64,000 bases of DNA, from assembly GCA_030747075.1 (NCBI GenBank), contig JASLLL010000007.1:45048-109047 (forward strand), read 5' to 3'. A program made the position numbers and the translations under genes. A model generated the notes under the pieces. It did no database searches and was not told where the DNA came from. It saw only the letters and a program-made list of their open reading frames with translations. The stretch's first letter is position 1; every line of letters starts with the position of its first letter. Source of the stretch: Gemmatimonadota bacterium. Lineage in GTDB: Bacteria; ARS69. Of the stretch, positions 12,137 to 27,919 are shown one piece after another.

Positions 12137-12140
12137 CCGG

Positions 12141-13283
12141 CTACTCCACGCCGTCGGGGCGCGTTCTTGGATCCAGCGCGTCACGCAGGCCGTCGCCCAG
12201 CAGGTTGTAGGACACGACGGTCAGGACAATCGCCAACCCGGGGAATGTCGAGATCCACCATGCTCCCAGGAGATTGTCCCTGCCCTGATTGATGATGTTC
12301 CCCCACGACGCGGTCGGTGGCTGCACTCCCAGCCCGAGGAATGACAGCACAGCTTCCACCAGAATCACATCACCGATCATGAGCGTAGCCGCGACGATGA
12401 CCGGTGACAGTGTGTTCGGCAGCAGGTGACGGAGGATTGTCCGGTGCGCCGGAATACCCAGAGCGCGCGTCGCCTCGACGAACTCCTGCTCGCGCAGTGA
12501 GAGGATCTGCCCCCGCACGAGCCTCGCAACTCCCATCCAGCCGGTCAGCCCGAGGACCGCGACAATCAGCCAGATCTTCGGACTGTAGATGGCAATGAGC
12601 GTCAAAATGATGAACAGCTTGGGGAATGCGATCAGCACATCCACGACACGCATGACCACCCAGTCCACGCGGTCACCGAAGTAGCCTGCGATGCATCCGA
12701 AGAACAGACCCAGCGTGATCGCGAGGGTGACCGCCACGAATCCGATGGAGAGTGATATCCGCGAGCCGTAGATCACTCGCGAGAGAATGTCCCGTCCGAA
12801 CTTGTCGGTTCCCATCGGGTGATCTTGACGGGGCGAAAGAAACCGCGTCCGCACGATGTCCTCCTGCGCATTCGGATCATGCGGCGCAAGAAGAGGCGCG
12901 AGAATCGCCACACAGTACAGCGTCAGCACCAGAAAGAGCCCCGTCCGCGCAATACGATTTCGCATGAACCTGCGGTAAGCGATTCGCGCGCGACTCGTCC
13001 CCGCCGTTGCTTCCGAGTCGGATGCGCTCTCGAGCGATCGAATCCGGCGACAATCCACCGTGGATGCGACCGGAATCCCAATCAGAGCCAGAGCCAGGAA
13101 CACCACCGCCGACATGAGGCCGCCCCCTCCCCCGCCGTGCAGGACTTCGCTCACCTCCGCGCGGGAACCGACCGCGACTGCCCAGAACGCCAGCCACGCC
13201 ACGGCGAAGAGCACGCCGCGGGCCCATCTCCGATGAAGCAGGTGGCCCGCCCCCGGGACAGCGGAAAGCACGCGACGCATCAT
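12141..13283 (-). CDS. Oligopeptide ABC transporter permease (OppC/DppC type) with extra N-terminal membrane domain
   Basis: A 380-residue permease. The start ATG 13283 overlaps the stop of the upstream permease (ATGA). The last 280 residues are ordinary DppC: an OppC N-terminal segment (RFMRNRIARTGLFLVL) and a DPNAQED-type linker. The permease domain follows, with MGTDKFGRDILSRVIYGSRI and the ATPase-contact loop EATRALGIPAHRTILRHLLP. The first 100 residues are unusual: a short PGAGHLLHRRWARG motif and two extra helices (VLFAVAWLAFWAVAVG and MSAVVFLALALIGIPVAS) joined by a glycine run. That piece resembles small PGxGQ-type membrane modules found alone in other genomes, so this looks like a fusion. 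It is the last gene of the long operon. Confidence 0.9.
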   Translation of the reverse strand: MMRRVLSAVPGAGHLLHRRWARGVLFAVAWLAFWAVAVGSRAEVSEVLHGGGGGGLMSAVVFLALALIGIPVASTVDCRRIRSLESASDSEATAGTSRARIAYRRFMRNRIARTGLFLVLTLYCVAILAPLLAPHDPNAQEDIVRTRFLSPRQDHPMGTDKFGRDILSRVIYGSRISLSIGFVAVTLAITLGLFFGCIAGYFGDRVDWVVMRVVDVLIAFPKLFIILTLIAIYSPKIWLIVAVLGLTGWMGVARLVRGQILSLREQEFVEATRALGIPAHRTILRHLLPNTLSPVIVAATLMIGDVILVEAVLSFLGLGVQPPTASWGNIINQGRDNLLGAWWISTFPGLAIVLTVVSYNLLGDGLRDALDPRTRPDGVE

Positions 13284-14245
13284 TCGTAGCGAATCCTGGG
13301 ATCCACGACTGCGTACAGCACATCCGCAATCAGGTTCCCGCCCACGACCATGACACCCGCGATGAGATTGACCGCCATGACCACGGGATAGTCCCTCGCG
13401 AAGATCGCGCCCACAGTCAGGCGCCCCATGCCCGGCCACGCGAAGATCGTCTCCGTGACCACCGCGCCCGACATGAGAAACGGAATGTAGAGTCCGAGGA
13501 GCGTCACCAGGGGAATCAGCGCGTTTCGCAGCGCGTGCCGGAACACGACCACGCGTTCAGGCAGTCCCTTCGCGCGGGCGGTTCGAATGTAGTCCTGCCG
13601 GATCACCTCCAGGAGGCTCCCGCGCATGAACCGCGCAACGGAAGCAGCCGACGCAATCCCCAGCACGAACACAGGCAGCACAAGATGGAGCGCCCGGTCC
13701 CACAGCCTGGGCAGAAACGCCATGTACTCCGCATCCACGGAGGCCATCTGGCTCGCGGGGAGGATGCCCAGCTTCAGCGAGAAGACAATGATGAGTACCA
13801 GCCCCAGCCAGAACCCCGGCATCGAGTAGACGAAGAGCGCCCCGAGCGTGAGCACATTGTCGATCCAGGAGTACTGACGGGCGGCGGAAACCAGACCGAC
13901 CGCAACTCCCACGACGAGATCGAGCAGCAGCGCGAGGAATGTCAGGATGAGCGTGTTCGGAACCGTCTCAGCGAGAATCTCCGCCACCGGTCTGTGATGC
14001 GAGAAGGAGACGCCGAACTCCCCCTGGGCCAGCGCGCCGAGCCACTTCACATACTGCACATGAAGAGGCTGATCCAGTCCCAGACGCACACGCACCGTCT
14101 CCATGACGGAGGGGTCAATCTCCGGATTGAAGTACATCGCCATGGGGTCACCCGGAGCCAGCCGGATGATGAAGAAGGTCAGCGTCGCCAAGGCCCATAC
14201 CAACGGGATTGAGGCCAGCACGCGCCGAATGATGAAGCGAATCAT
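13280..14245 (-). CDS. Oligopeptide ABC transporter permease (OppB/DppB type)
   Basis: A 321-residue inner-membrane permease with the DppB pattern. It has an N-terminal helix followed by RLAPGDPMAMYFNP, a periplasmic loop (LGLDQPLHVQYVKWLG) and five further helices. The cytoplasmic contact motif is YIRTARAKGLPERVVVFRHAL, and the end is VLYAVVDPRIRYE. With the DppC-type partner it forms the channel for peptides delivered by the two lipoproteins encoded just upstream. The gap to the preceding gene is 69 bases and the overlap with the next is 4 bases. Confidence 0.94.
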   Translation of the reverse strand: MIRFIIRRVLASIPLVWALATLTFFIIRLAPGDPMAMYFNPEIDPSVMETVRVRLGLDQPLHVQYVKWLGALAQGEFGVSFSHHRPVAEILAETVPNTLILTFLALLLDLVVGVAVGLVSAARQYSWIDNVLTLGALFVYSMPGFWLGLVLIIVFSLKLGILPASQMASVDAEYMAFLPRLWDRALHLVLPVFVLGIASAASVARFMRGSLLEVIRQDYIRTARAKGLPERVVVFRHALRNALIPLVTLLGLYIPFLMSGAVVTETIFAWPGMGRLTVGAIFARDYPVVMAVNLIAGVMVVGGNLIADVLYAVVDPRIRYE

Positions 14246-14314
14246 CTTTCTCCCCCGCGCGGCATACGAACGCCTCTCCGGGGAGCCGCGAGGGCGTCTG
14301 CCGAATCCTGCAGC

Positions 14315-15934
14315 CTAGCTCGCATAGCGACGGTCCCCCGGGGCAATCCACCACTCCCCGGCGTTCAGCAGAAACCCGCGCACATCCGTCTCCACTCCCC
14401 GGATGCGCCGCGACACACCGACCGAGTAGTTCAGTTCGAACAAGACCGTATACGGTTGCTCCTGATGAAGCACGCGCTGGAACTCCCGCCAGATCGGCAG
14501 AGCGTCCGCATGGGTCCGCGCAAGCAACCCGCGATCGATCAATGCGTCTACCTCACGATTCGTGTAGCTCCCCATATTGTACTTTCCCAAGACCGCATCG
14601 GAGTGGAATGTGTCGTACGGATTGACCACGAAGTCCGACTGCCACGCCATGTGGTAAGCGTCGAAGTCCTTCGCCATGATCTCATCGAGAAACACCGTCC
14701 ACTCCCTCACCTCCGGGGTCGCCGCGATCCCGATGCGCGCCAGATCAGCCTGAATCATCACCAGCGTATCTTCGCGGAGCTGGTTCCCCAGATTCGTCTT
14801 GATCCGGAACTCGAACTTCTGCCCATCCCGGTCCAGGACGCCGTCTCCGTCTGTGTCCCGCCAGCGAAGTTCCGCGAGGATCCGCGAAGCCTCCGTCGGA
14901 TCGTACGGATGGGGCGCGATCTCCGTGGCATACGCCTGGGATAGCGACATGATCGGATGCGCGGTCACCTTGCCCTGACCGAACACCAGCGCGTCGAGAA
15001 TGCCCTGCCGGTTGATGGCCATCGTCATCGCGCGCCGGACCGCACTCTCGGCAAAGAGCGGGTTCTGAATATTCCATCCGATGAACTGAAACCCCCGCTG
15101 CGGAACCGTCTTCACGCGGTAGCGATCCTCCTCGCGAAGGCCCGGGACGGAGGAGAAACGCAGCCGCTCCACGATGTCCAGTTCACCACTGCGAAACGCC
15201 GTCTCCACCGCAGTCTGGTCCGGAATGACCCGCACGACGATCCGATCCAGCCAGGGTCGTCCCGCAAAGTGATCCGGGTTCGCCTCCAGGACCAACTCCC
15301 GATCACGCTTCCATCGAACGAAACGAAAGGGGCCGTTTCCGATCGGTGCCCGGTTGAAGGACGCGGACTCCATGAGTTCCGCGGGAACATCGCCCAGGAG
15401 GTGGTGCGGAAGAATCACACGACGCAGTGCCGGCAACTGGTCCGCATAGGCACGCGCGAATCGGAACACCACGGTGTGGGGCCCGACGGCCTCCACTTCC
15501 TCCAGCGGACGCAGCGATCCCACATCCGGGTAACCCAGGAGAGGGTTCTTCATCATGCGAAATGTGAACACGACATCGGCCGCCGTCGTCGGCACGCCGT
15601 CATGCCAGAGGACATCGTCGCGAAGGGTGACCGTAATCTCGCGCCGGTCCCCGGAGAACTCCCAGGCGCTTGCCAGTGCTCTTTCAAGTTCGAAATCCGC
15701 CCCCCAACGAAAGAGTGGCGTGTACAGGAGGTTCGTCATGACCTCCGTCGCGTTGGCATCGGTGGAGACGAACTCGTTCAGCCCGTCCAGGTCGGAAAAG
15801 AGCCCGATCACGCAAGTCCCCCCGGGGACGGGGCCGGCGGAGGGCTCTTCCGCCTCGCGTGCGCCTCTCTCGGACCCGCAGCCGACGACGAAGATCAGTG
15901 CGGCCGAGACAATCCACGCCCGCCCACGGCTCAC
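14315..15934 (-). CDS. Peptide-binding lipoprotein (solute-binding family 5), second copy
   Basis: A 539-residue lipoprotein with signal and lipobox FVVGC (Cys about 19), followed by the family 5 fold. Landmarks are an early LNEFVSTDANATEVMTNLLY segment, LRDDVLWHDGVPTTAADVVF, FNRAPIGNGPFRFVRW and the domain-II helix RRAMTMAINRQGILDALVFG. The GTG start overlaps the stop of the first copy (GTGA). It aligns along its whole length with the upstream protein, so the pair is a tandem duplication that has diverged. It should capture peptides outside the membrane for the DppBC-type permeases that follow. A short DTDGDGVLDRDG calcium-loop-like insertion is present only in this copy. Confidence 0.92.
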   Translation of the reverse strand: MSRGRAWIVSAALIFVVGCGSERGAREAEEPSAGPVPGGTCVIGLFSDLDGLNEFVSTDANATEVMTNLLYTPLFRWGADFELERALASAWEFSGDRREITVTLRDDVLWHDGVPTTAADVVFTFRMMKNPLLGYPDVGSLRPLEEVEAVGPHTVVFRFARAYADQLPALRRVILPHHLLGDVPAELMESASFNRAPIGNGPFRFVRWKRDRELVLEANPDHFAGRPWLDRIVVRVIPDQTAVETAFRSGELDIVERLRFSSVPGLREEDRYRVKTVPQRGFQFIGWNIQNPLFAESAVRRAMTMAINRQGILDALVFGQGKVTAHPIMSLSQAYATEIAPHPYDPTEASRILAELRWRDTDGDGVLDRDGQKFEFRIKTNLGNQLREDTLVMIQADLARIGIAATPEVREWTVFLDEIMAKDFDAYHMAWQSDFVVNPYDTFHSDAVLGKYNMGSYTNREVDALIDRGLLARTHADALPIWREFQRVLHQEQPYTVLFELNYSVGVSRRIRGVETDVRGFLLNAGEWWIAPGDRRYAS

Positions 15935-17511
15935 GACGCCCCTCCGGCAGGGCGCCAGCGGTGGACCTCTACCAACGCCCCGCGCGAATCCATCGGCGCC
16001 TCAGCAACGCGGTCGCGGCGGTACGGGTAGTTGGCCTCTCCGGCGTAGAGCACCGACACGGGCTCGAGGCGATGCATGACCTCCTGGAACTCCCGCCAGA
16101 TCCGTTTCGTCTCTTCCCGATCCTGTGTCACACGCGCCCGATCCATCAGGCTGTCCGTAACCGGATGAGAGAACGAAATGGAGTTGTGCCCGCCTGCGAT
16201 CGCGCGCGTGTGAAAGTTGTCCTCCGGGTCGAAGACGAAATCAGTGCGGCTCGCCAGCACCGTCGCGTCAAAGTCCTTTGCGTAGATCTTCTCCAGATAG
16301 ACCGTCCACTCAAAGAACTCCGTATCCACGCCAATCCCCAGTTCTTGATAGTCCGCCTGCACCATCGTCGCGATTTCCTCCGAGATCTCGTTTCCTGAAA
16401 TCAGCGTGAAGGTGAACTCAAAGCGTTGACCGTCCTTCATGCGGATGCCCTTTGAGTCGCGCTCCGACCACCCCGCTTCGTCGAGAAGTCGTCCGGCAGC
16501 CGCCGGGTCGAAGGGGTACGGCTCGATCCCCGGGTGAAACGCCCAGTGTTCCGGATAGATGGTCGTCGCGATAACCTGTCCAAAGCCGACCCGGAACGCA
16601 TCCACGATCGTCTGCCGGTCGGTCACCATCGTGAGTGCCCGGCGAACACGCGGGTCGGCGAACAACGCGGCGCGATGATTCCAGCCGATATAGGTATAGG
16701 TCCGATCGGAGAAGCGCCCGAACCCGTACTCGGCGCGGCCTTCCAGTGCCTGAAAGAAGCGGCTGGGCATCCGATGGTACACATGCACGCCGCCCGTCTC
16801 CAGTTCGGTGCGGAGCGTCGTTTCTTCGGGGATGATCCGGAACACAAGCCTGTCGAAGCCGGCCCGCCCGAGCGCGCAGGTCTCGCTGGCGTCGAAGACC
16901 AGGCGATCCTCCGCCACCCACTCCCGCAGTCGCCAGAACGCATTCCCCACGGGCGCCCGGTTGAAGGGGAGCGACGGAAGCGCCGCTGCCGTAGCGCCGG
17001 AGAGGAGGTGCGCGGGCAGAACATGAAAGCGCGTGTCATTCACCGGTTCCGCCACCGCCTTCCGGAAGCGAAAGCGCACTGTCCGCGGGTCCGGAGCGTC
17101 ACACGACTCAATGTGGCGAATCTGTCCCTTGTCGCGATAGGGAATGTCCGGGTCCGCCATTCGGTCGAAGGTGAACTTTACATCGTCGGCGGTAGTCGGG
17201 ACACCATCCTCCCAGACAACATCCTCGCGAAGCGTGTAAGTCAGAACGAGTCCATCGTCAGAGAGTTCCCAGGACTCGGCGAGCATCGGACGATCTGCAA
17301 GTTCCGGCGGAGGCCCGAAATCCGTGAGCTTCAGGAAGAGGAGATCGGCCATCTCGGTCGCCTGCGAACTGGTCGAAAGAAGCGGGTTCAGAAGATCCGG
17401 CTGGTAGCCCATTCCCCAGACCAGCGTCCGTCCCGCCCCGTTACCGGGGGAACCGCACGAAAGCCCCATCAGCACAACCGCCGCGAGGAGGAATGCGAGG
17501 GTGGCCCTCAC
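15931..17511 (-). CDS. Peptide-binding lipoprotein (solute-binding family 5), first copy
   Basis: A 526-residue protein starting at GTG 17511, which overlaps the stop of the upstream membrane-protein gene (GTGA). Signal helix FLLAAVVLMGLSC ends in a lipobox cysteine. Family 5 landmarks are LREDVVWEDGVPTTADDVKF, FNRAPVGNAFWRLREW and RRALTMVTDRQTIVDAFRVG. Sequences upstream of 17511 in this frame are the shadow of the membrane gene and are excluded. It is paralogous to the next gene. The tight coupling to a gene of unknown function upstream is the notable point: peptide uptake and the MutL-centred module appear to be expressed together. Confidence 0.92.
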   Translation of the reverse strand: MRATLAFLLAAVVLMGLSCGSPGNGAGRTLVWGMGYQPDLLNPLLSTSSQATEMADLLFLKLTDFGPPPELADRPMLAESWELSDDGLVLTYTLREDVVWEDGVPTTADDVKFTFDRMADPDIPYRDKGQIRHIESCDAPDPRTVRFRFRKAVAEPVNDTRFHVLPAHLLSGATAAALPSLPFNRAPVGNAFWRLREWVAEDRLVFDASETCALGRAGFDRLVFRIIPEETTLRTELETGGVHVYHRMPSRFFQALEGRAEYGFGRFSDRTYTYIGWNHRAALFADPRVRRALTMVTDRQTIVDAFRVGFGQVIATTIYPEHWAFHPGIEPYPFDPAAAGRLLDEAGWSERDSKGIRMKDGQRFEFTFTLISGNEISEEIATMVQADYQELGIGVDTEFFEWTVYLEKIYAKDFDATVLASRTDFVFDPEDNFHTRAIAGGHNSISFSHPVTDSLMDRARVTQDREETKRIWREFQEVMHRLEPVSVLYAGEANYPYRRDRVAEAPMDSRGALVEVHRWRPAGGAS

Positions 17512-18200
17512 CCGGCATCCTCTTCCGACGCGCCTCTCCCGCCACGCCTCGCCCAGAGGGCCAGGAAGACCGCGACGCACACCAGCAGCATCCACGACAC
17601 CCGGCCATGCGCGATAAGATCCCGAGAGCGCCCGATGGCCAGCGAGATCCGCGACATCACCGTGTATCCGAAACTCGCGCCGAAGGACACCATCAGGAAC
17701 CAGACGCCGATCCGCGTCACAACCCCCAGCGCCCCGCGATGCTCTCTTGAGAAGTAGAAGTACAGGAGGCTGGATGACAGCCCCAGCACCAGGATGGCAT
17801 TGCTCACGGCTCCTGCCCCGCCGTGCACCACATCCAACATCGTCGACTGAAGCTGGATGATGAGATCTCCCGACCCGAATGCCACAACATTGATCCCCGA
17901 ATACATCCCCACGACGAAGGCCAGCGGCCACCTGGACAACCAGGAGTGCTTTTCGGAAAACCGCGTGAACATGAGAAGGGAGAGCCCCAGAGGAATCCAC
18001 TTGAGCAGATCCCCCTCCGCAAGCGGAACGATGAGGTTGGGCCGCACCGTCTCCTGCCAGGCCATGGCGATCCCGTACCCCGCCGTGATCCCCACAAAGA
18101 CATGCTCGGCGAACTTGTACAGAGGATTGTCCCGATACAGGAAGCTCAGTATGCAGAATGTGAGTGCCAGGCTGATCCACACATGCAGAGCGTCGATCAT
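17508..18200 (-). CDS. Seven-helix inner-membrane protein of unknown function
   Basis: A 230-residue, very hydrophobic protein with about seven membrane segments (for example ALHVWISLALTFCILSFLY, FVGITAGYGIAMAW, GLSLLMFTRF and WMLLVCVAVFLALWA). It has a cytoplasmic basic/acidic tail (ARRGGRGASEEDAG). No family motif is recognised. ATG overlaps the upstream stop by 4 bases, and its own stop overlaps the first peptide-binding gene by 4, so it sits inside a translationally coupled chain. It is probably a structural or channel subunit of the membrane complex encoded by 17.5-23.8 kb, though this is inferred only from the operon. Confidence 0.72.
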   Translation of the reverse strand: MIDALHVWISLALTFCILSFLYRDNPLYKFAEHVFVGITAGYGIAMAWQETVRPNLIVPLAEGDLLKWIPLGLSLLMFTRFSEKHSWLSRWPLAFVVGMYSGINVVAFGSGDLIIQLQSTMLDVVHGGAGAVSNAILVLGLSSSLLYFYFSREHRGALGVVTRIGVWFLMVSFGASFGYTVMSRISLAIGRSRDLIAHGRVSWMLLVCVAVFLALWARRGGRGASEEDAG

Positions 18201-19039
18201 GACTCTCTCCGCCGACGAAGGAAGTACATCACATTCCCGAAGAGAATGAACACGATGATCAGCACATGGCTCGCGCTCTGCGCCGCCATCCCTCCGACCG
18301 CTTCCCCCGGACGCCCCACGAGAAGTTCATACTCGGCCGCGCCCTTCATTCCGGCCGAGAGCCCGACCAGTTGCTTGGGAATGGCCTGATAGTACGGCAC
18401 ATAGTCCGGCCCGCTCACCGCTGTACACGCGCCGCCGATCCGCACTCCGTACTGGCTCCGTGCGATCTGGACATACTCCTTGATCCCGGGCACCCCGGCG
18501 GAGACATTGATCAGCATCTCCACATCGTCATAGCGAAACACCTCGCGCATGAGCGGCAGCGAATCCACCGGTGTCCCGTCGCGGTCGAAGGGGAAGGCCT
18601 CGTGAATCGACTTCCCCATGGAGCGAATCACGATCTGCCGACCCTCCTTGTAGCCCAGGTGCACATAATCCACGCCCGGGACATATCCATACTCCGACTC
18701 CAGCCCCACTTCCTCCAGCACCCTCTCCGTGATGGGAGGAGCCGGTGCCCACAGGCTGACCATGACCATGCGAATCCGCTTTTCCGCCAGATGATGCAGG
18801 ACCGCAATGTGGAAGGGGAGCAACTCCGGTTTTCCCGGGGGATCGTAGTCTGCGGACACCAGCACGATCGACCCTTCCGGCAATGCCTCTACGGCATCGT
18901 ACAGATCCCGCACCATCGGTGAGATCGGGATGGGCAGGCTCACCGGAAACAGGAGCGGAAGCATGATCGCCAGCGAGAGAATGACGAAGAGCCACCGTCG
19001 GTCCACGAACTCCAGCCTATGGAAGAATCCACCGGTCAT
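18197..19039 (-). CDS. Membrane-anchored protein of unknown function
   Basis: A 280-residue protein with one helix near the N-terminus (FVILSLAIMLPLLFPVSLPI) and one at the C-terminus (SHVLIIVFILFGNVMYFL). They bracket a soluble domain of about 200 residues. That domain alternates strands and helices (GSIVLVSADYDPPGKPELLP, RIRMVMVSLWAP, GVDYVHLGYKEG, VEMLINVSAGVPGIKEYVQI), suggesting a Rossmann-like sheet. I do not recognise the family. It begins 3 bases after the upstream stop and overlaps the downstream start by 4. Its soluble domain is similar in style to that of the 19688-20833 protein, so the two may be partners. Confidence 0.72.
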   Translation of the reverse strand: MTGGFFHRLEFVDRRWLFVILSLAIMLPLLFPVSLPIPISPMVRDLYDAVEALPEGSIVLVSADYDPPGKPELLPFHIAVLHHLAEKRIRMVMVSLWAPAPPITERVLEEVGLESEYGYVPGVDYVHLGYKEGRQIVIRSMGKSIHEAFPFDRDGTPVDSLPLMREVFRYDDVEMLINVSAGVPGIKEYVQIARSQYGVRIGGACTAVSGPDYVPYYQAIPKQLVGLSAGMKGAAEYELLVGRPGEAVGGMAAQSASHVLIIVFILFGNVMYFLRRRRES

Positions 19040-19042
19040 GGA

Positions 19043-19678
19043 CTACTTGCCCCCCAGATGCGCGCGTTCCAGCCCGAGGATGACACGCAGTCCCGTAGAG
19101 ATGGCGCCGAGCGCGGCCCCCATCAGGATGGCTCGCTTCCCCGCCAGATTGGGGACCTCCATGATCCAGTCCTTCACGCCCGGGAACCCGCCGAGAAAGG
19201 ACTCCGGCCCCCAGATGTACGCGCCCACCGGAACCTGCCCGAGCATCACGATGACCGCCGCACCGAGCAGCAAGACCGCTTCCGTGCTCCTTGCCCGGAA
19301 GGCCCGGTACGCTGCGGAAGTGATGAAGAACGCAAGGAGCGAAAACATGGTGGCGCCCAACGGATCAAAGACGGTGTCGTACAGCCAGAGGAAAGGGCCG
19401 CCCTTGTGGTCGTGGAAGATCCCCAGTCCTGCCATCCCGACAAGGCTCACGACAAGGACAGCGCTGTAGGCCCATCCCTCGTCGCGGCGAGAGATGCGCC
19501 CGCCATGAATCCGCAGGACATTGGCCACGGCCAGCACATAGGTGAAGGCCACGACGATGAGCCCCCACTGCTCCATCTCTGTCACGAATGCCGCGAAGGA
19601 GCGATGCGGCACGAAGAACTCCGCGATCATCACCGTTCCGGCCACCAGCGTCAGAACCCAGGGAACCCAGCGTTTCAT
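19043..19678 (-). CDS. Six-helix inner-membrane protein of unknown function
   Basis: A 211-residue membrane protein with about six helices (VLTLVAGTVMIAEFFV, GLIVVAFTYVLAVANVL, YSAVLVVSLVGMAGLGIF, MFSLLAFFITSAAYRAF, VLLLGAAVIVMLGQVPVGAY, AILMGAALGAISTGLRVIL). The loop HDHKGGPFLWLYDTVFDPLG and the GATMFSLLAFFITSAAYRAFR stretch are distinctive and look conserved rather than random hydrophobic sequence. Function unknown. It lies 9 bases after the upstream gene and 3 bases before the next. Confidence 0.72.
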   Translation of the reverse strand: MKRWVPWVLTLVAGTVMIAEFFVPHRSFAAFVTEMEQWGLIVVAFTYVLAVANVLRIHGGRISRRDEGWAYSAVLVVSLVGMAGLGIFHDHKGGPFLWLYDTVFDPLGATMFSLLAFFITSAAYRAFRARSTEAVLLLGAAVIVMLGQVPVGAYIWGPESFLGGFPGVKDWIMEVPNLAGKRAILMGAALGAISTGLRVILGLERAHLGGK

Positions 19679-19687
19679 TCCGTCCTC

Positions 19688-20833
19688 CTACCGCACCAGG
19701 AACCAGTCGCGGAAGCCCGAGACTCCCAGCGACTCCATGAGAGTACCGACAAGCAGAAGACTCACGAACAACACCTTCGCCCAGTCCGCGGCCTTCAAGT
19801 TGGAGAGGAGCATGGGATCTTCGGACATGTAGGCGCTTGCCGCAAAAAACTCCTCACCGATCAGTGTGTAATCGCACGCGGCAATAAAGAACGGCAACTG
19901 CGTCACCTCCGCTGTCCCCGCGATCTGGATGGAGCCCGCGGCAAAGCCTGTCTCGGCGAAAATCAGCGACTCCGCAAAGAAGCGGCCCAGATAGAGATTC
20001 GCGGCAGGCTTCTCGCGCAGGATGATCCCGTTGACCCCGGCGCAGTAGGCAAACTGCTCGGTCGAGATGAAACGCACCGAGTCCGTCTGATACGCATCCG
20101 GACGCCCCGCTTCCATGCAGGACTGCTTCACCACCTCGTCCGCCACTGCCATGACGAATGGTGTCCGAGTGGGGACGCGCACCGGCACATCGTGACGGGC
20201 CGTCTCCCGGGCGACACGCGAGAGGATCATCATCGACGCGATGGTCTGGATGTCTTCCACATCCTCGATCCCGGGAACATAGAGAACCGAGCGGCCCATT
20301 TCCGTCGCCCGGCCGATGGCCTCGTCGATCGCGGCGACTGCCGGCAACTTCCTCACATGGAACCGTGCGCCCCGCGATGCACGCGCGATATTCACCAGGA
20401 CAAACGCGAAGAAGGTGGACAGAAGAAGGAGAACATTGATGCGTTGAGAGTTGAAGAACTGCGGCTTTGAAACTGCGGGCGCGGTCTCTGCCGGAAGAGA
20501 CTCACTGCCGTCAGGGAACAGGGTCGTCAAACGATAGACGAGGGACACGCCATCGGGCGGCCCCTCCTCATTGCCGTTCCTGGCATCGATAAAGACGCCC
20601 TCGGACAGCGCGACCACTCCCACATCGCGTGCAACTCCGTCCTCACCCACGCGCTCCAGCCGGACCCGAAGATCCTCCGGCGCACTCTCCGGCACATCCC
20701 AGCGAACGGTGATGGACCGTCCGCCGTCGTCGGGTGTGTCGTGCGCCGCGAGCCCCTCCGGCACCCGGCTGGCACCGGCGGGGACTGCCGGCGCTATCGC
20801 CAGAGAGACGGCCAGTGCCGCGGCGCGGATCAA
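19688..20833 (-). CDS. Exported N-domain / cytoplasmic-domain membrane protein (possibly DUF6754-like)
   Basis: A 381-residue protein. A signal helix (AAALAVSLAIAPAVPAGA) is followed by a fibronectin-III-like domain of about 85 residues (ITVRWDVPESAPEDLRVRLE to LVYRLTTLFPDGSES). A membrane helix comes next (INVLLLLSTFFAFVLVNIA). A soluble alpha/beta domain of about 200 residues follows (SVLYVPGIEDVEDIQTIASM, TPFVMAVADEVVKQ, FISTEQFAYCAGVNGI). It closes with a last helix (VLFVSLLLVGTLMESLGV). From memory this resembles proteins annotated DUF6754, but that is untested. It would link periplasmic recognition to a cytoplasmic module and overlaps the upstream gene by 4 bases. Confidence 0.7.
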   Translation of the reverse strand: MIRAAALAVSLAIAPAVPAGASRVPEGLAAHDTPDDGGRSITVRWDVPESAPEDLRVRLERVGEDGVARDVGVVALSEGVFIDARNGNEEGPPDGVSLVYRLTTLFPDGSESLPAETAPAVSKPQFFNSQRINVLLLLSTFFAFVLVNIARASRGARFHVRKLPAVAAIDEAIGRATEMGRSVLYVPGIEDVEDIQTIASMMILSRVARETARHDVPVRVPTRTPFVMAVADEVVKQSCMEAGRPDAYQTDSVRFISTEQFAYCAGVNGIILREKPAANLYLGRFFAESLIFAETGFAAGSIQIAGTAEVTQLPFFIAACDYTLIGEEFFAASAYMSEDPMLLSNLKAADWAKVLFVSLLLVGTLMESLGVSGFRDWFLVR

Positions 20834-21957
20834 CTCTCGATGATCTCTACATTGGCCCGCGGGAGCATGTGGTCCTCTCCGTTCGGCAGCTTCACATGAA
20901 GGACCCGGACCATCGCGCCCGACGGGAGTTCGTGAAGCGGCGACGGAAGACCCTGCACAATCCCCAGTTCTCCGAAGTGCGGCTCCCGAATGATCCGAAC
21001 CTGCGTACCCGTCTGGAGCCCGCCCGCCACCACGGCGGCCACCGGCCCTCCCTCGGCACGGACATCCGACCGAGGGACCACAATCTCCGGCCGAATCACG
21101 CCGGCCCGAATCTGCGTGGCTCCGTTGATCGAGGCTTCCATTCCCACGCAGGAGCGAAGCAGATCGAAGGTGGCCTGCGCCATGCCGATCTGGCCGAAAC
21201 CTTCCGTAATGACGACGGTCAGCCCTTTTTCCTCGTTCCCCGTGATCGCCACGCCGATGTCGTAGCCGAGGAAGTCACGGATGGTCGCATCGTCGATCCC
21301 GCCGGCGACGATGCCGAGAACGCCGCACGAAACCGCCTTCTCCAGCGCGGCGGAGGTGACCAGCGAGCCACCCACCAGAATGGTCCCTTCATGCTCGGCC
21401 GCAATTCCCGTGGCTTCCAGCACTTCGTCCGGAGACTCCACCGCCATCATGACCTTGCCGCAGGTCTCCCCGCCGATCCCGAAAATCCCCTGAATGAAAC
21501 TGCCGTGGGTCTGCACCACCGCGCCTTCGCCCTCGCGGACCTCCACGACCTCTCCATCGACATAGGCATCCACCTCCACCGGCATGGGCGGTTCCCGGAG
21601 TAGAACCTGCCCCGTCACGCTGGACACATTCTCAATGGTGCCTCGAATGGGAGACTTCACGCTCGACTTGAAGAGCCCGAACAGCGTGGAACTCCGCGCG
21701 ATGATGTCGTCCTTTTCGACGGCGTCGCCGGGGTGCTTCTCCATCTTCTCGGGAACCTCTTCGGGCAACACCGAAAGCAGATTCGCAACATTCACACTGT
21801 GAACATTCCCCGGAAGTTCCGTGCGAGCCACCACCTGTTCGGATGTGACCCGGTCCCCCGAGGCCACCACTACCTCTCCGCGAAGGGGAAGAATGCGCTC
21901 CTTGTTGAGCGCGGTGAGTTCGGTAACCCGGAGCCCGGGCGTGTACGCGTGTGCCAT
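20830..21957 (-). CDS. Soluble protein with RnfC/biotinyl-type barrel-sandwich domain and KOW-like C-terminus
   Basis: A 375-residue cytoplasmic protein. Residues about 15-55 resemble the RnfC N-terminal beta structure (ILPLRGEVVVASGDRVTSEQ). Residues about 70-135 form a lipoyl/biotinyl-like barrel-sandwich (GDAVEKDDIIARS, SPIRGTIENVSSVTGQVLL) without the lysine used for cofactor attachment. A glycine-rich alpha/beta part follows (GTILVGGSLVTSAALEKAVS, GVLGIVAGGIDDATI, ITEGFGQIGM). The C-terminal 60 residues resemble a KOW-type barrel (LQTGTQVRIIREPHFGELGI). No iron-sulfur ligands are visible. It lies 24 bases after the MutL-like gene and overlaps the next by 4, so it is probably a partner of the actin-fold protein. 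Confidence 0.65.
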   Translation of the reverse strand: MAHAYTPGLRVTELTALNKERILPLRGEVVVASGDRVTSEQVVARTELPGNVHSVNVANLLSVLPEEVPEKMEKHPGDAVEKDDIIARSSTLFGLFKSSVKSPIRGTIENVSSVTGQVLLREPPMPVEVDAYVDGEVVEVREGEGAVVQTHGSFIQGIFGIGGETCGKVMMAVESPDEVLEATGIAAEHEGTILVGGSLVTSAALEKAVSCGVLGIVAGGIDDATIRDFLGYDIGVAITGNEEKGLTVVITEGFGQIGMAQATFDLLRSCVGMEASINGATQIRAGVIRPEIVVPRSDVRAEGGPVAAVVAGGLQTGTQVRIIREPHFGELGIVQGLPSPLHELPSGAMVRVLHVKLPNGEDHMLPRANVEIIES

Positions 21958-21981
21958 CGTTTATCCTCTCTTCCGGGCGGG

Positions 21982-23820
21982 TCAGACGACCGCCGCGGCC
22001 TCCTCGGTGGGGTACGCGTCCATGGCCGTCGTCCACCCGCGCAGCTTCTCCACGCGATCCGGATCCGCCGGGTCCAGCGCGAGCGGCCGCCCGCGACCAT
22101 CGAGTACGAGTCCTGTGACGCCGCCGTGAAGCGTCGTCTCAACCAGCTTCCCGGGGCCATTCCCGAGATCGCAGCCCTTGGCGGGAGTCAGGCGCGCGAG
22201 CACCGTCGTCCCCGGCCCCAGCGGCAGCAATACCAGATCCCCGCTGGCCACCTTGTGCGTCTCCGTCAAGCCCTCTTCGGAAGTGAGCTCCGCCGTGAGG
22301 ATGGTCTTCCCGGGCTTCACTGATCCCACGGGAGCCACGCAGGTCCCCAGCCAGATCAGGCAGTCCTTCTCGAAGACCTCGGTGGCCGCTTCCGGATGCA
22401 CCGCGGCCAGAACCCCCAGTTGCGGCATCATGAAGATGGAGTCCACGCCCAGCCGGGTAATGCCCTCCGGCAGGAACGCATCCACCATCATCATCGCGGA
22501 CTGATTGCGTCGGGGGGCGTGGGAAAGGACGCCGCCGGAACCGATGAGCAGGTCCAGCGACATCATATCGACAATGGTCTCCCCGGTGCTGGACTGCGCG
22601 AAGGTATCCGATACCGTCCGCTCCTTCTGGACGCCGCGCAGACCGACCGCCATATCCTTGTGCTGAACGAAGGCCAGGCGAAGCGCCTCCCGTGCGAGCG
22701 CCTGCTCCACCATCAACGCCTCCATCGTGTGCGGAATGGTGGTGGGGCGAATCATCTTGTTCCGAATCCGGTTTCGCAACCCCTTCTCCTCTACCGTGAA
22801 CGGAACCCAGCGCATCACATTCTCGATGCCGGCTTCGGTCAGCACATTGGAGATGGAATAGCTCATGCCGAGATTGGCGGAGACGGTCCGGTTGAAGACA
22901 TCCCCAAAGACCGAGAACACATCGGTGGTAGCCCCGCCGATATCCACACCGACCACATTCAGTCCCTGCTGCTCGGCAATGGTGCGGATGATGTTCCCTA
23001 CCGCCCCCGGCGTCGGCATGATGGGAACGCCCACCCAATCCATGAGCTTCCGGTAGCCGGGAGCCTGCGCCATGACATGCTCCATGAACAGGTCGTGGAT
23101 CTTCTCCCGGGCCGGGCCGAGGTTCTCGCGCTCCATCACCGGCCGCAGGTTGTCCACGACAGCCAGATCCGTCTTCTCGCCCAGCGTCGATTCGATCTGT
23201 TCCGACGCCTTGCGGTTCCCGGCATAGATGACAGGGAGCTGATAGGTGCTGCCCAGGCGCGGGCGCGGGTCTGCTGCGGAGATAATCTCCGCCAGTTTGA
23301 CGACATGCTCCACGGTTCCGCCGTCGATACCGCCTGAGAGGAGGATCATGTCCGGGCGCAGATGACGAATGCGTCGGATCTGCTCGTGCGGAAGCCGCCC
23401 GTCATTGGAAGCCAGCGCATCCATCACGATGGCACCGGCTCCCAGAGCGGCGCGCTCCGCGCTTTCGGCGGTCATGGTCTTGACCACGCCCGCGACCATC
23501 ATCTGAAGCCCACCGCCCGCACTGGAGGTGGAGACATAGAGGTCCACGCCCGTTCCGTCTTCCCGGCAGGGCGTCACGATTCCGTCGCCCTCCAGGAACT
23601 TCCGGTCCGCGAGCTCTTCGACCTCTTCGATGGCATTGAGAACTCCCTTCGTCACATCTTCGAAGGGCGCCTCTACGGTCGTGGGAGCTTCCCCGCGAAC
23701 GATGAGGCGGTACTCTCCTTCCCGATACTCAATCAGGATGGCCTTCGTCGTCGTACTCCCGCAGTCCGTGGCCAGAATGCTCCGGATCTGCGAAGGGTCC
23801 AGCGTGGGTATCTCCGACAT
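21982..23820 (-). CDS. MutL-type (glutamate mutase L-like) actin/hexokinase-fold ATPase
   Basis: A 612-residue protein of the MutL family (not the mismatch-repair MutL), named from a gene next to glutamate mutase. The phosphate-1 motif is ILATDCGSTTTKAILIE (about residues 14-30). A second ASKHA block is GVDIGGATTDVFSVFGDVFN (about residues 292-311). GGIDGGTVEHVVKLAEI and LIGSGGVLSHAPRRNQSAM complete the ATP-binding fold. Such proteins are proposed to act as reactivases or chaperones for B12 enzymes. No glutamate mutase or other B12 enzyme is visible here, so the client may instead be the co-encoded membrane module. It starts 69 bases after the small conserved-looking gene, with GAGGAAGAG just upstream. 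Confidence 0.85.
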   Translation of the reverse strand: MSEIPTLDPSQIRSILATDCGSTTTKAILIEYREGEYRLIVRGEAPTTVEAPFEDVTKGVLNAIEEVEELADRKFLEGDGIVTPCREDGTGVDLYVSTSSAGGGLQMMVAGVVKTMTAESAERAALGAGAIVMDALASNDGRLPHEQIRRIRHLRPDMILLSGGIDGGTVEHVVKLAEIISAADPRPRLGSTYQLPVIYAGNRKASEQIESTLGEKTDLAVVDNLRPVMERENLGPAREKIHDLFMEHVMAQAPGYRKLMDWVGVPIMPTPGAVGNIIRTIAEQQGLNVVGVDIGGATTDVFSVFGDVFNRTVSANLGMSYSISNVLTEAGIENVMRWVPFTVEEKGLRNRIRNKMIRPTTIPHTMEALMVEQALAREALRLAFVQHKDMAVGLRGVQKERTVSDTFAQSSTGETIVDMMSLDLLIGSGGVLSHAPRRNQSAMMMVDAFLPEGITRLGVDSIFMMPQLGVLAAVHPEAATEVFEKDCLIWLGTCVAPVGSVKPGKTILTAELTSEEGLTETHKVASGDLVLLPLGPGTTVLARLTPAKGCDLGNGPGKLVETTLHGGVTGLVLDGRGRPLALDPADPDRVEKLRGWTTAMDAYPTEEAAAVV

Positions 23821-23889
23821 CTCTTCCTCGTTCTCGATCCCGGCGAGCCCGGAGTCCCCCCCCGGTCGATTCCCCCGAAGGAGAAACCG

Positions 23890-24258
23890 TTACGCCTTCA
23901 GTTTTCGCTTCTTCTCTTCCGCGCGCTCGATGCGCACAATCATCCTCTCCATGGTGCTTCGATCTTCCAGAAGCAATGCCACGCGATCCAGTTCCTTCGC
24001 GTCAAACACCGTGTGAACAATCGGCGACAGAAAGTGGAGAAACTGGCTTCCCACGAACGACAGCGGCTTCGACGACTCCAACATGAACACCGCCGGAACC
24101 TCCATCCCCCAGCGCACCACTGCGGCCGCGATGCGGTCCAGGAGTTCCTCGTCCTCCTGAGAGAGAGCCCCCCCATGCTCGCGGATCGGCGGAGGCGCCC
24201 CTCCCGACTCTTCAGGCCGACGCGGCTCCGTCTTTCTGCCCCACCATTTCTTCAGCAA
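23890..24258 (-). CDS. Small conserved-looking protein of unknown function
   Basis: A 122-residue protein with a basic head (LKKWWGRK), an acidic helical segment (LSQEDEELLDRIAAAVVRWG) and then VPAVFMLESSKPLSFVGSQF. That last stretch looks like a conserved motif in which a proline-rich turn precedes a helix. A charged helical tail follows (MERMIVRIERAEEKKRKLKA). I do not know the family. The TTG start at 24258 has GAGGTG 7 bases upstream and lies inside the end of the preceding gene (47-base overlap in another frame), which implies coupled expression. It lies immediately upstream of the MutL-type gene and probably belongs to its module. Confidence 0.68.
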   Translation of the reverse strand: MLKKWWGRKTEPRRPEESGGAPPPIREHGGALSQEDEELLDRIAAAVVRWGMEVPAVFMLESSKPLSFVGSQFLHFLSPIVHTVFDAKELDRVALLLEDRSTMERMIVRIERAEEKKRKLKA

Positions 24259-24655
24259 ACCGCTTCACCTCTTCCCCGTTGTCTTCCAGGAGCAGCGTCT
24301 CTCCTCGAAAGGAATCCCGCCAGGTGTCCCGATGGTAGGGCGACAACAACAGCACCCTTCGATCTATTCTCACCCTCCGAAAGTCCGACCATGGTCGGCT
24401 CCATGTCCTCCAGGGCCGGGCGATCTCCACTCCCTTCCCGTCAAGCCGGTACCTCGTCGGGAAAAAGAACGGCGCAAACGAAGCAAACAACACCACCGCC
24501 GACAGTACCGTCAACAAGCGATCCACCGACACCCTCGCCACCACTCCCACGCAAAGCGCGGACGCCAGAAGCGCGAACGCTCCCGCGGCAGGCCTTCGTG
24601 CCAGGGGCCACGCCCTCCAGCAGATCTCCCGGGCGACCGAATCCGGCCCCGTCAC
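24212..24655 (-). CDS. Small membrane protein, probably PH-like
   Basis: A 147-residue protein with two adjacent helices (AAGAFALLASALCVGVVARV and LLTVLSAVVLFASFAPFFFP). A short beta-rich domain follows (YRLDGKGVEIARPWRTW, DFRRVRIDRRVLLLSP, GETLLLEDNGEEVKRFAEEM), resembling bacterial PH-like membrane proteins. GTG 24655 overlaps the gcvPB stop (GTGA); TTG 24661 is an alternative. It links the glycine-cleavage genes to the MutL module without a gap. The PH-like call rests on fold pattern only. Confidence 0.65.
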   Translation of the reverse strand: MTGPDSVAREICWRAWPLARRPAAGAFALLASALCVGVVARVSVDRLLTVLSAVVLFASFAPFFFPTRYRLDGKGVEIARPWRTWSRPWSDFRRVRIDRRVLLLSPYHRDTWRDSFRGETLLLEDNGEEVKRFAEEMVGQKDGAASA

Positions 24656-26157
24656 CCGCAACGCCCCGGCCAGCAGAGGTCCGGCCGACGAGCGGCGCGA
24701 GCCTCGTCCACGCGAGACACCGGCGTTGTATGCGGGGCCGCCTTCACGACCTCGGGGGATTCCCTGACCTCCCGCGCGATGGCGTTCATCGCGGCGGCGA
24801 AGCGATCCAGAGTCTCGACGCTCTCGGACTCCGTCGGTTCGATCATCATCGCCTCTTCCACGATCAGTGGGAAGTACACCGTGGGAGGATGAAAACCGAA
24901 GTCCAGAAGGCGTTTGGCCATATCATGGGTTCGCACACCCAGAGCCTTCTGACGCGTCCCCGAGATCACGAACTCATGCATGCAGGCGCGATCGTACGGA
25001 ATCTCGAAGTCCTCCGCTACAAGGCTTTTCAGATAGTTCGCCCCGAGAACGGCCCCCTCCGAAATATCCCGCAGGCCCTCCGCCCCGTGGTAGAGCAGGT
25101 AGGCGTACGCGCGAGCGAGCACCCCGAAGTTCCCCAGATGCGTGTGAACGCGCCCGGCCGACCGGGGCCGGTCCGTATCCAGAAAGAAGGTCCCGTCCTG
25201 GCGCCGGGTTGGCAGGGGGGCGGGAAGATAGGGCGACAGCGCCTCCGACGCGCCAATCGGCCCCGCACCCGGACCGCCGCCGCCGTGAGGCGTGGCGAAG
25301 GTCTTGTGCAGGTTCAGATGAAGCAGGTCGAAGGGGACATCGCCCGGGCGCATCAGGCCGATGATCGCGTTGAAGTTCGCGCCGTCCATGTAGAGCAGCG
25401 CACCGGCATCGTGGACGATGCGCGCAATCTCCAGAATGCGTGACTCGAAGAGCCCCAGCGTGTTGGGAAGCGTCAGCATGACCACCGCCGTCTTGTCGCT
25501 GACCGCCTCGGCGAGCTTCCCGGGATCCACTTCTCCGTCTGCTCCGGAGAGCGCTTCCACCGTGCGGAATCCGGCGAGCGAAGAACTGGCCGGATTCGTG
25601 CCGTGCGCGCTGTCCGGGACAATGACCTCCGTCCGGTCTTCCCCGCGATCCTCAAAGTAGCGTCGAGCCATGAGAAGACAGGTCAGCTCTCCGTGCGCCC
25701 CGGCGGCGGGCTGGAGAGACATCCGGTGCATCCCGGTAATGACGGACAGTCGGTCCGCCAGATCCACCAGTAGCTCCAGCGCTCCCTGCGACGCTTCTTC
25801 CGGCGCGTGCGGATGGAGATCCCGCAAACCGGGAGCCGCCGCCGCCACTTCGCACATCTTCGGGTTGTACTTCATCGTGCACGACCCGAGCGGGTACATG
25901 TCCTTCTCGATATGGTGGTTGAGGTTCGACAAGCGCGTGAAGTGGCGCACGACCGCAAGTTCGGAGTTCTCCGGCAGATCCGGCGGAGTCTCCCGCAGAA
26001 AGCGGGCCGCGATGCCGGGGGTATCCCCCGAAAGCGTCGATTCCTCCGGCAGGCGGTACCCTCTCCGGCCGCTCCGGGACATCTCGAAGAGCGTGGGTTC
26101 CACCACCGTCATCGGAACCTCTTCGGCGGCGGCGGAAGTCGGGCGATCAACGGTCAT
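24652..26157 (-). CDS. gcvPB: Glycine dehydrogenase (decarboxylating) subunit 2, P-protein
   Basis: A 501-residue C-terminal half of a split glycine cleavage P-protein. It decarboxylates glycine with pyridoxal phosphate and passes the aminomethyl group to GcvH. Landmarks: MYPLGSCTMKYNPKMCE, DSAHGTNPASSSLAGF, DGANFNAIIGLMRPGD and the PLP-lysine region HLNLHKTFATPHGGGGPGAG. ATG 26157 overlaps the gcvPA stop (ATGA) with GGAGAGGGTGAG upstream, so longer starts are rejected. It is the last gene of gcvT-gcvH-gcvPA-gcvPB. Length is normal for the two-subunit form. Confidence 0.97.
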   Translation of the reverse strand: MTVDRPTSAAAEEVPMTVVEPTLFEMSRSGRRGYRLPEESTLSGDTPGIAARFLRETPPDLPENSELAVVRHFTRLSNLNHHIEKDMYPLGSCTMKYNPKMCEVAAAAPGLRDLHPHAPEEASQGALELLVDLADRLSVITGMHRMSLQPAAGAHGELTCLLMARRYFEDRGEDRTEVIVPDSAHGTNPASSSLAGFRTVEALSGADGEVDPGKLAEAVSDKTAVVMLTLPNTLGLFESRILEIARIVHDAGALLYMDGANFNAIIGLMRPGDVPFDLLHLNLHKTFATPHGGGGPGAGPIGASEALSPYLPAPLPTRRQDGTFFLDTDRPRSAGRVHTHLGNFGVLARAYAYLLYHGAEGLRDISEGAVLGANYLKSLVAEDFEIPYDRACMHEFVISGTRQKALGVRTHDMAKRLLDFGFHPPTVYFPLIVEEAMMIEPTESESVETLDRFAAAMNAIAREVRESPEVVKAAPHTTPVSRVDEARAARRPDLCWPGRCG

Positions 26158-27539
26158 GGGCTCACCCTCTCCTTCGCTGCGCAGTCGGCAAGTACGCAAC
26201 CCATGGCTTTGGCATAGGCGTCCACCTCGCTCCACAGTCGTTTCTCCGTCACCGCAATCAGAAGTCCCTCTCCGCCCCCCGGCACTTCCTCCACAGGAAT
26301 CCCCGCGAGGATCCCGTGCTCTGCCATCCGCCTCAGAACCTCCGACGCCGCCGCGCAATCCGGGAGGCGCACGGCAAACTCGCGGAAGAAGGGTGCGTCC
26401 GGGTCCGCCAGCGCCAGTCCGTCGATCGCCGTCAATCGCTCCGCGAGGGCATGTGCCTTCTTCGCGGAAAGCTCAGCGGCGAGCTTCCGGCCGGTCTCTC
26501 CCAGAAGAGCGGTCGAGATGGTGGCGGCCAGTGCGGTGAGTGCCTGATTCGTGCAGATGTTCGAAGTGGCCCGGGCGCGACGAATATGCTGTTCCCGTGT
26601 CTGGAGGGTCAGCGTGAAGGCACGACGGCCCTTCGCGTCCGGGGCGATGCCCGCAATCCGACCCGGCATGCGCCGCAGGAAGCTCTTTCGGGCGGCCATC
26701 ACGCCTGCTCCCGGCCCTCCGAAACTCATCGGGGTTCCGAGTGACTGGGCCTCGGCGACGGCAATGTCCGCGCCATACTCCCCGGGGGGCTGAAGCAGCG
26801 CCAGGGAGGAGAGATCCACCGAGGCGACAAAGAGCGGCGCGTCTTCCGCCTCAAGGGAGGCCCCGGCAAGGCGCATGTCTTCCAGAGCCCCCAGGTAGTT
26901 GGGGTGCTGGAGGACCACAGCGCACACGCCGTCGAGCGCGTCCGGCGTCAGTCCCGACACATCCGTGCGCGCACCCTGAGCCGGAAGTTCCCGGATCACG
27001 AGACCGGAGGGCGCGGTGATCGTGCGAAGCACCTCCATCGCCTGCGGATGCAGATGCGGCGACACCAGCACGGTCCGACCCGGGCGGGAATCCTTCGCAA
27101 CGAGCACGGCCTCGGCGAGGGCCGTCCCGCAGTCGTACATGGAGGCATTCGCAAGGTCCAGCGCCATCAGGCGACAGACGATCGTCTGGAACTCGTAGAT
27201 GGCCTGAAGCGTTCCCTGGCTCACTTCCGCCTGATACGGAGTGTAGGCGGTCATGAACTCCGGGCGGGAGAGGAGCGCTCCGGTGGCCGACGGGACGCAG
27301 ACATCGTAGAACCCGCCCCCGGCGAAGCAGACCTGCTCTCCTGCGGAGCGATTCCGGCCGGCGAGCTTCGCGATGCGATCCAGCGTCTCCGACTCCGAGA
27401 GACCGGCCTCCAGCGGGAGGTCTTCCGTGAGGCGAAGTCGCTCGGGAATCTCACCCACCAGGTCCGCAAAGCTCTCCGCTCCGATCACCTGGAGCATGTG
27501 CTCCCGATCGGCCTTTGTATGCTGAACGAAGGAGTTCAT
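26154..27539 (-). CDS. gcvPA: Glycine dehydrogenase (decarboxylating) subunit 1, P-protein
   Basis: A 461-residue N-terminal half of the split P-protein. Landmarks: FAGGGFYDVCVPSATGALLS, EFMTAYTPYQAEVSQGTLQA, FQTIVCRLMALDLANASMYD and TSNICTNQALTALAATI. It pairs with GcvPB to form the active decarboxylase. ATG 27539 shares one base with the gcvH stop (TGATG), and gcvPB begins within its own stop codon. The catalytic lysine is on the partner subunit, as expected. Confidence 0.97.
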   Translation of the reverse strand: MNSFVQHTKADREHMLQVIGAESFADLVGEIPERLRLTEDLPLEAGLSESETLDRIAKLAGRNRSAGEQVCFAGGGFYDVCVPSATGALLSRPEFMTAYTPYQAEVSQGTLQAIYEFQTIVCRLMALDLANASMYDCGTALAEAVLVAKDSRPGRTVLVSPHLHPQAMEVLRTITAPSGLVIRELPAQGARTDVSGLTPDALDGVCAVVLQHPNYLGALEDMRLAGASLEAEDAPLFVASVDLSSLALLQPPGEYGADIAVAEAQSLGTPMSFGGPGAGVMAARKSFLRRMPGRIAGIAPDAKGRRAFTLTLQTREQHIRRARATSNICTNQALTALAATISTALLGETGRKLAAELSAKKAHALAERLTAIDGLALADPDAPFFREFAVRLPDCAAASEVLRRMAEHGILAGIPVEEVPGGGEGLLIAVTEKRLWSEVDAYAKAMGCVLADCAAKERVSP

Positions 27540-27919
27540 CAGGCGCCGATGTGGTCCGCGTATTCTTCCGCGGAGAGCAGGTCTTCCATCTTCCATTCAG
27601 CGGACGGCTCCGCGCGGAGCAGCCAGCCCTCTCCATACGGATCTTCGTTCACGGTCTCCGGGGTGTCCGCCAGTCGTGTGTTCATGTCCACCACGACCCC
27701 GTTCAAAGGCGCGAAGAGATCCGAGACGCTCTTCACCGACTCCACGCTGCCGAAGACCACTCCGACCTCCATCTGCGTTCCGAGTTCCGGCAGTTCCACA
27801 TAGACGATATCCCCCAGTTCCTGCTGGGCGAAATCCGTAAGCCCCAAGACCACGACCCCGTCTTCCATGAGGACCCACTCGTGATCCTTGGTGTATCGGA
27901 GTTCCCCGGGAATGTTCAT
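27539..27919 (-). CDS. gcvH: Glycine cleavage system H protein
   Basis: A 126-residue lipoyl carrier. The lipoylated lysine lies in GSVESVKSVSDLFAPLNG (about residue 64), and the C-terminal NEDPYGEGWLLRA motif is typical. It shuttles the aminomethyl intermediate between P and T proteins. ATG 27919 opens MNIPGELRYTKDHEW, the usual N-terminus. It lies 82 bases after gcvT and overlaps gcvPA by one base. Confidence 0.97.
   Translation of the reverse strand: MNIPGELRYTKDHEWVLMEDGVVVLGLTDFAQQELGDIVYVELPELGTQMEVGVVFGSVESVKSVSDLFAPLNGVVVDMNTRLADTPETVNEDPYGEGWLLRAEPSAEWKMEDLLSAEEYADHIGA

Follow-up and report, generated by a model that had tools for sequence, protein, structure and literature searches.

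What does an ATPase of the MutL family do in a run of genes for membrane proteins? The question is raised by 64,000 nucleotides of a Gemmatimonadota genome (contig JASLLL010000007.1, positions 45,048 to 109,047; hereafter the window), in which eight co-directional genes lie on the minus strand at 17508-24661. The original prediction, made from the sequence alone, had described eight consecutive genes whose stop and start codons mostly overlap or are separated by fewer than 25 bases. The open reading frame (ORF) list of the window agrees with both points: all eight ORFs are present, transcribed in the order PH149, S122, MutL, BSH, FN3-DUF6754, TM211, ROS280, and TM230, with a single larger gap of 69 bases between S122 and MutL. 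The other intervals are -47 bases for PH149/S122, 24 for MutL/BSH, -4 for BSH/FN3-DUF6754, 9 for FN3-DUF6754/TM211, 3 for TM211/ROS280, and -4 for ROS280/TM230; gene starts are those of the ORF tool, and the first overlaps may shrink with later starts. Comparison with other genomes gives good support to the view that they belong to a distinct membrane system linked to an ATPase.

The Gene Set in Other Genomes

The cytoplasmic domain of the FN3 protein belongs to DUF6754 (PF20539), a family catalogued only as a domain of unknown function. Scanning GTDB species genomes for this family returned at least 554 confirmed places, and 88 loci were examined, 79 from the scan and nine from the phylum of the window. 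TM211 accompanies DUF6754 at 86 of the 88 loci, and ROS280 and TM230 at 83 each, which makes the four-protein module near-complete at 83-88 of 88 loci in at least a dozen phyla; in the cases looked at, shortfalls lay at contig ends. The remaining genes were found at fewer of these places (MutL at 32, BSH at 35, S122 at 25, and PH149 at 18). By record title, the carriers include Zixibacteria, Eisenbacteria, WOR-3/Stahlbacteria, Cloacimonadota, Coatesbacteria, Fermentibacteria/Aegiribacteria, Latescibacterota, Edwardsbacteria, Riflebacteria, Armatimonadota, Planctomycetota, and Poribacteria, a list which is a lower bound given that it draws on 88 loci. The neighborhood is therefore not peculiar to one genome. 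The full eight-gene order also occurs in Eisenbacteria/Fermentibacteria-type genomes, and two Armatimonadota loci (L141 and L169) have all eight genes in the order of the window. The model organisms searched as controls lacked the system, and scans of viral contigs with the DUF6754 and TM230 proteins gave no relatives.

The two halves of the set differ in copy number. A BSH match was present in 34 of 35 genomes (in two of them only divergent or partial), nearly always as one full copy, and DUF6754 matches numbered 1-7 per genome with a median of 3, a few of them fragmentary. Where a locus holds the module only, the genome usually has BSH elsewhere. MutL-BSH is thus the single-copy part of the system and the membrane module the repeated part, often in tandem. 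The genome of the window itself carries, elsewhere, a second membrane module without MutL or BSH (L013, 9491-13070), whose DUF6754 domain shares 49% identity with that of the eight-gene run.

Armatimonadota are of particular use here, as many of them split the set into {PH149, S122, DUF6754, TM211, ROS280, TM230} and {MutL, BSH}, or carry MutL and BSH apart. In the single-contig genome G100, MutL, BSH, and DUF6754 are megabases or hundreds of kilobases apart. Among 121 Armatimonadota genomes, 108 have both MutL and BSH, one has MutL alone and one BSH alone, and 11 have neither (Fisher p 1e-13); for BSH and DUF6754 the corresponding counts are 102, 7+1, and 11 (Fisher p 3e-10, both values from a test that treats related genomes as independent). 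It is the same 11 genomes that lack MutL, BSH, and DUF6754 alike. An RpoB tree was built from 60 of the 121 genomes and includes 10 of these 11 (G156, the one left, has no RpoB match); on it the joint losses require at least 4-5 changes. At least two of these loss events involve several genomes, and therefore incomplete assemblies cannot account for all of the absences. Because the genes are lost together although they are often unlinked, the joint loss of MutL, BSH, and DUF6754 points to joint function.

MutL and BSH

The third gene of the run (21982..23820, minus strand) encodes a MutL-type, GlmL-related ATPase of the ASKHA/actin fold. It matches PF13941 with an E-value of 1.4e-128 and 429.9 bits against a cut-off of 27, over positions 1-450 of the 450-position profile, and continues into a C-terminal extension of about 110 residues. 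Its relatives across phyla (24 were compared) are 56-83% identical to the window protein, and the nucleotide-binding motifs DCGSTTTKA, GVDIGGATTD, and GSGGVLSHAP are invariant or nearly so among them. Since the ASKHA motifs of the phosphate-1, phosphate-2, and adenosine types are intact, MutL would be expected to bind and hydrolyze ATP.

Although this protein shares its ATPase family, over the full domain, with GlmL and Or-4, the accessory proteins of glutamate mutase and ornithine degradation, it falls below the cut-offs of both. It scores 235.3 bits against 475 for NCBIfam GlmL (NF040745), 222 against 600 for Or-4, and 172 against 204 for the GlmL subfamily. Further differences from them are the C-terminal extension and a fixed partner, BSH, in place of a mutase. 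That no B12 mutase partner accompanies the gene had been claimed from the sequence alone, and this was borne out: glutamate mutase E (PF06368) was above cut-off in 0/40 carrier genomes, the genome of the window included, and the two methylmalonyl-CoA mutases of that genome are on other contigs. Co-occurrence of five or more of the genes across phyla without glutamate mutase, which the original prediction had named as support for a distinct system, is likewise what these 40 genomes and the recurring eight-gene order exhibit.

BSH (20830..21957, minus strand) combines a barrel-sandwich domain of the RnfC/NqrA/lipoyl-like kind with a middle alpha/beta domain and a C-terminal KOW-like domain. The match to RnfC_N is weak and below cut-off in the window protein (E 0.0011), in contrast to its relatives (E 4.9e-8), in which NQRA_N also matches (E 1.5e-5); a profile search of the PDB gave no significant match for BSH. 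Both its N-terminal domain and its place as a cytosolic partner of a membrane complex resemble RnfC and NqrA of the ion-pumping redox complexes. BSH differs from these in its KOW C-terminus, in having an ATPase as partner, and in that none of their other subunits was recognized among the eight proteins. Cysteines were looked for as RnfC-type iron-sulfur ligands, and the BSH alignment has no invariant or nearly invariant one; the reading of a redox ion pump, which the RnfC-like domain had prompted, was set aside.

The two proteins are also found joined. In three genomes a divergent paralogue carries MutL and BSH in one chain of 939-993 residues (L202, 8047-10953; L203, 8006-10825; L195, 12844-15825), and a divergent MutL-like and BSH-like pair of genes is adjacent at L205 (2960-5537).

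The first two genes of the run encode small proteins. PH149 (24212..24661, minus strand) is a membrane protein with two predicted helices followed by a cytoplasmic PH-like (bPH_6-like) domain, and homologues of it are found ahead of S122 in Eisenbacteria/Fermentibacteria-type genomes, Planctomycetota, and Armatimonadota. The bPH_6 match is weak in the window protein (E 0.011). Of the RnfC-like and PH-like assignments made from the sequence alone, both are faint in the window copies, and the former gains strength in relatives. S122 (23890..24258, minus strand), of about 120 residues, has one weakly hydrophobic segment and the conserved core LTVPAIxFLESxKPLSFLGxQxLxF..P, and adjoins DUF6754 in Armatimonadota.

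The Membrane Module

The exported fibronectin-like domain, the Rossmann-like membrane protein, and the two polytopic subunits of the original prediction could all be recovered with profiles, structure models, and helix predictions. FN3-DUF6754 (19688..20833, minus strand) begins with a signal peptide and an exported FN3 domain, crosses the membrane by one transmembrane (TM) helix, and continues into the cytoplasmic Rossmann-like DUF6754 domain and a C-terminal TM helix. It matches PF20539 with an E-value of 8e-110 (366.4 bits against a cut-off of 27), and the FN3 domain is evident both from a profile match to titin FN3 (E 5.7e-25) and from the structure model (pLDDT 91.8). For the DUF6754 domain the best fold match is the Sir2-like 1s7g (Z 12.2, 3.4 A over 145 residues), spanning residues 162-338 in a search with the whole-protein model in which FN3 fills most of the match list. 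Its invariant polar residues include R175, T177, E178, E288, E294, Q303, Q312, D321, E327, and E328.

The inner and outer parts of this protein have not been conserved equally. Across 56 DUF6754 proteins, mean pairwise identity is 64% in the cytoplasmic domain versus 29% in the exported FN3, and between tandem copies at one locus it is 54-79% versus 20-55%. FN3 is missing from many Armatimonadota copies, which are DUF6754 proteins of about 260 residues, and three proteins of 935-1005 residues in the Cloacimonadota group have long N-terminal regions with weak FN3-like matches (L199, 5025-7832; L200, 3380-6397; L201, 497-3415). The contrast in identity would fit a common inner partner with variable outer parts.

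TM211 (19043..19678, minus strand) has six predicted TM helices, both termini inside, and the motif ATMFSLLAFFIASAAYRAFRAR. TM230 (17508..18200, minus strand) likewise has six in its family, with a seventh in the window copy, and the motif FSFLYKDNPFYKFAEHLFVG. Between them, ROS280 (18197..19039, minus strand) comprises a TM anchor, an exported Rossmann-like domain, and a C-terminal TM helix, a topology read from the conserved R14/R15 and a C-terminal Arg cluster; H258 and N269 are invariant, and both lie within the C-terminal helix. Its structure model has a pLDDT of 95.9 and its best fold match is 1kjn (Z 10.1), a Z value near background, for which we call the domain no more than Rossmann-like. 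A profile search of the PDB gave no significant match for ROS280, and the Foldseek matches of this model and that of FN3-DUF6754 were mostly poor alignments of long rmsd. Neither Pfam nor NCBIfam gave a significant match for ROS280, TM211, TM230, or S122. An assignment of the membrane proteins to unrelated transporters would have counted against the original prediction; no known transporter family in these two databases was found for TM211, TM230, or ROS280, although a missing match does not exclude one.

Three further ideas were dropped. TM211 and TM230 as mutual duplicates are unsupported (hhalign probability 0.4), as are DUF6754 and ROS280 (3.1), and no PADLOC model for anti-phage defence was matched by any of the eight proteins.

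One Machine, a Scaffold, or an Enzyme

Do the eight genes then encode one machine? We judge the chance somewhat short of even that they do, with a MutL-BSH ATPase unit acting on the membrane modules. In such a machine, MutL and its physically bound partner BSH would form a cytosolic unit, in which MutL binds and hydrolyzes ATP. This unit would dock on the cytoplasmic Rossmann domain of FN3-DUF6754 in each module, with S122 and the PH-like protein on the cytoplasmic surface of the membrane. A conformational change driven by ATP in MutL would pass through BSH into the module, where the helices would carry it to the exported parts, FN3 and the Rossmann domain, and as the outcome something would be moved or assembled at the envelope or across it. 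The 1-7 modules of a genome would share a single MutL-BSH unit as their source of energy, and stronger conservation of DUF6754 than of FN3 is what one would expect of a common cytosolic partner that recognizes the inner side. In its fuller form, as an undescribed ATP-driven envelope machine of many little-studied phyla in which an actin-fold ATPase and an RnfC-like adaptor energize interchangeable four-protein modules, we offer this as a tentative proposal, held with more doubt than conviction. What speaks for one machine is observed in the conserved set and its order, the copy numbers, the joint losses, the MutL-BSH fusions, the invariant ASKHA motifs, and the invariant His and Asn inside a TM helix of ROS280, along with the folds and the predicted topology; ATP hydrolysis, docking, the transfer of energy, and the cargo are inferred.

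Several points weigh against it. None of the membrane subunits looks like a known transporter, and the neighboring genes vary by lineage (glycine cleavage, Tol-Pal, two-component) and name no substrate. The high conservation of MutL would suit a motor no better than a filament or scaffold. Co-inheritance speaks for joint function and not for a physical complex, and the number of losses counted on the tree is a fairer figure for it than the Fisher values. Of the ATP-driven transport, sensing, or assembly system first suggested for this locus, what stands is a distinct ATPase-linked membrane system, with transport, sensing, and assembly each a candidate role.

The main rival, which we consider unlikely but by no means negligible, is an envelope scaffold: MutL would be an ATP-switched organizer of the actin fold like FtsA, PilM, or MreB instead of a transport motor. 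The layout that goes with it, FN3 and Rossmann heads outside and the PH-like protein and S122 at the inner face, seems to us just as unlikely. An actin-like family with 56-83% identity across phyla argues for it, as do an exported FN3 in proteins that reach about 1000 residues through long N-terminal exported regions, and Tol-Pal genes beside BSH in Zixibacteria. However, the closest families to MutL are mutase accessory ATPases and not filament formers, about 16 helices, among them two six-helix subunits with invariant polar residues, seem more than an anchor would need, and 1-7 paralogous modules per genome also sit poorly with a scaffold.

Less probable again is an enzyme with an ATP-dependent activase. 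Here the Rossmann domains of DUF6754 and ROS280 would form a membrane enzyme or receptor for a one-carbon or lipoate-linked metabolite, kept active by MutL-BSH in the manner supposed for GlmL-type proteins and B12 mutases; both parts of this account strike us as improbable. In its favor are the many invariant polar residues in DUF6754 and the glycine cleavage genes and lipoate-ligase-like gene described below, but no cofactor motif was identified, and glycine cleavage is not adjacent in most loci of four phyla.

That MutL is a drifted GlmL which reactivates some unseen B12 mutase is largely refuted already and very improbable: membership of PF13941 and two methylmalonyl-CoA mutases elsewhere in the genome are in its favor, but MutL reaches no more than about half of the score that NCBIfam requires for GlmL or Or-4, no carrier genome of 40 has glutamate mutase E above cut-off, and the proteins that constantly accompany MutL are BSH and the membrane proteins. 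That the genes share no function and simply keep an inherited order, as the concentration of the window-type order with upstream glycine cleavage in one part of the tree might suggest, is hardly credible given co-occurrence and co-loss of MutL, BSH, and DUF6754 even where unlinked, the MutL-BSH fusions, and the identical eight-gene order in a distant phylum.

Neighboring Genes

In the window, the run is flanked directly upstream by gcvT-gcvH-gcvPA-gcvPB (24652..29189, minus strand; gcvPB/PH149 spacing -10 bases) and directly downstream by two peptide-binding lipoproteins and OppB/OppC (12141..17511, minus strand), the first lipoprotein gene starting within the last four bases of TM230. We do not claim either neighbor as part of the system. 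Because of the gene spacing, the whole run between the glycine cleavage and oligopeptide-transporter genes is probably one transcript. Within 10349-17511, the lipoprotein and OppB/OppC genes follow TM230 in the same direction, and a fused OppD-OppF gene (10349-12136) runs in the opposite one. Opp-type genes are also found downstream at two loci of the same phylum (L016 and L020) and at two of Eisenbacteria (L037 and L043), the latter with a similar layout.

About 18 related loci have glycine cleavage genes directly upstream, and in 10 loci a lipoate-ligase-like gene, identified by eye and not by profile, lies downstream, mostly directly after TM230. Single glycine-cleavage or lipoate-type instances occur close to the set at L151, L179, and L204. 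The link is missing from most loci of Armatimonadota, Planctomycetota, Riflebacteria, and Zixibacteria; a strict tie was dropped, and a frequent, not universal, lineage-level association was kept.

Other lineages have other neighbors. At several Zixibacteria loci, BSH is followed by genes that read as Tol-Pal. An exported protein of about 256 residues is encoded between MutL and BSH at L181, L187, L188, L189, L192, and L197 (also at L193 and L098), and most loci with this insert have TolQ/TolR/TonB/TolB/Pal-like genes after BSH. In Armatimonadota, a response regulator adjoins BSH at six loci (L143, L148, L160, L175, L176, and L178), at some with a kinase. Nine module-only loci, mainly of Zixibacteria (L034, L044, L050, L063, L068, L079, L087, L089, and L095), have S-adenosylmethionine synthetase, S-adenosylhomocysteinase, and a nucleotidyltransferase downstream, and some of them have PTS enzyme I-like and sugar-isomerase-like genes upstream. 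We read the glycine cleavage, Tol-Pal, and response-regulator neighbors as lineage-level associations.

Known Systems and Significance

Two known arrangements come close to the eight-gene set. In PilMNOP and FtsA-type systems, a cytosolic actin-fold protein is tied to inner-membrane proteins with exported domains. The set shares this plan; it differs in that no sequence relation is seen and its membrane parts are polytopic. In group II ECF transporters, one shared energizing unit serves several exchangeable membrane parts, which is again the likeness, whereas no ABC ATPase is among the eight proteins and the membrane part is a four-protein module. Within the literature covered, from which most subscription journals and bioRxiv fall outside, DUF6754 is named in no paper and the GlmL/MutL literature does not contain this system. 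As a system the set would be new, while the ATPase family and DUF6754 were already catalogued.

A large part of the MutL family is thereby set apart from B12 mutases. This matters for annotation, as such proteins tend to receive the name 'glutamate mutase L' by family membership alone. That the set is highly conserved and has repeatedly been lost as a unit argues for a real cellular function, and if the system is ATP-driven, an actin-fold ATPase would be added to the short list of ways in which bacteria energize membrane complexes.

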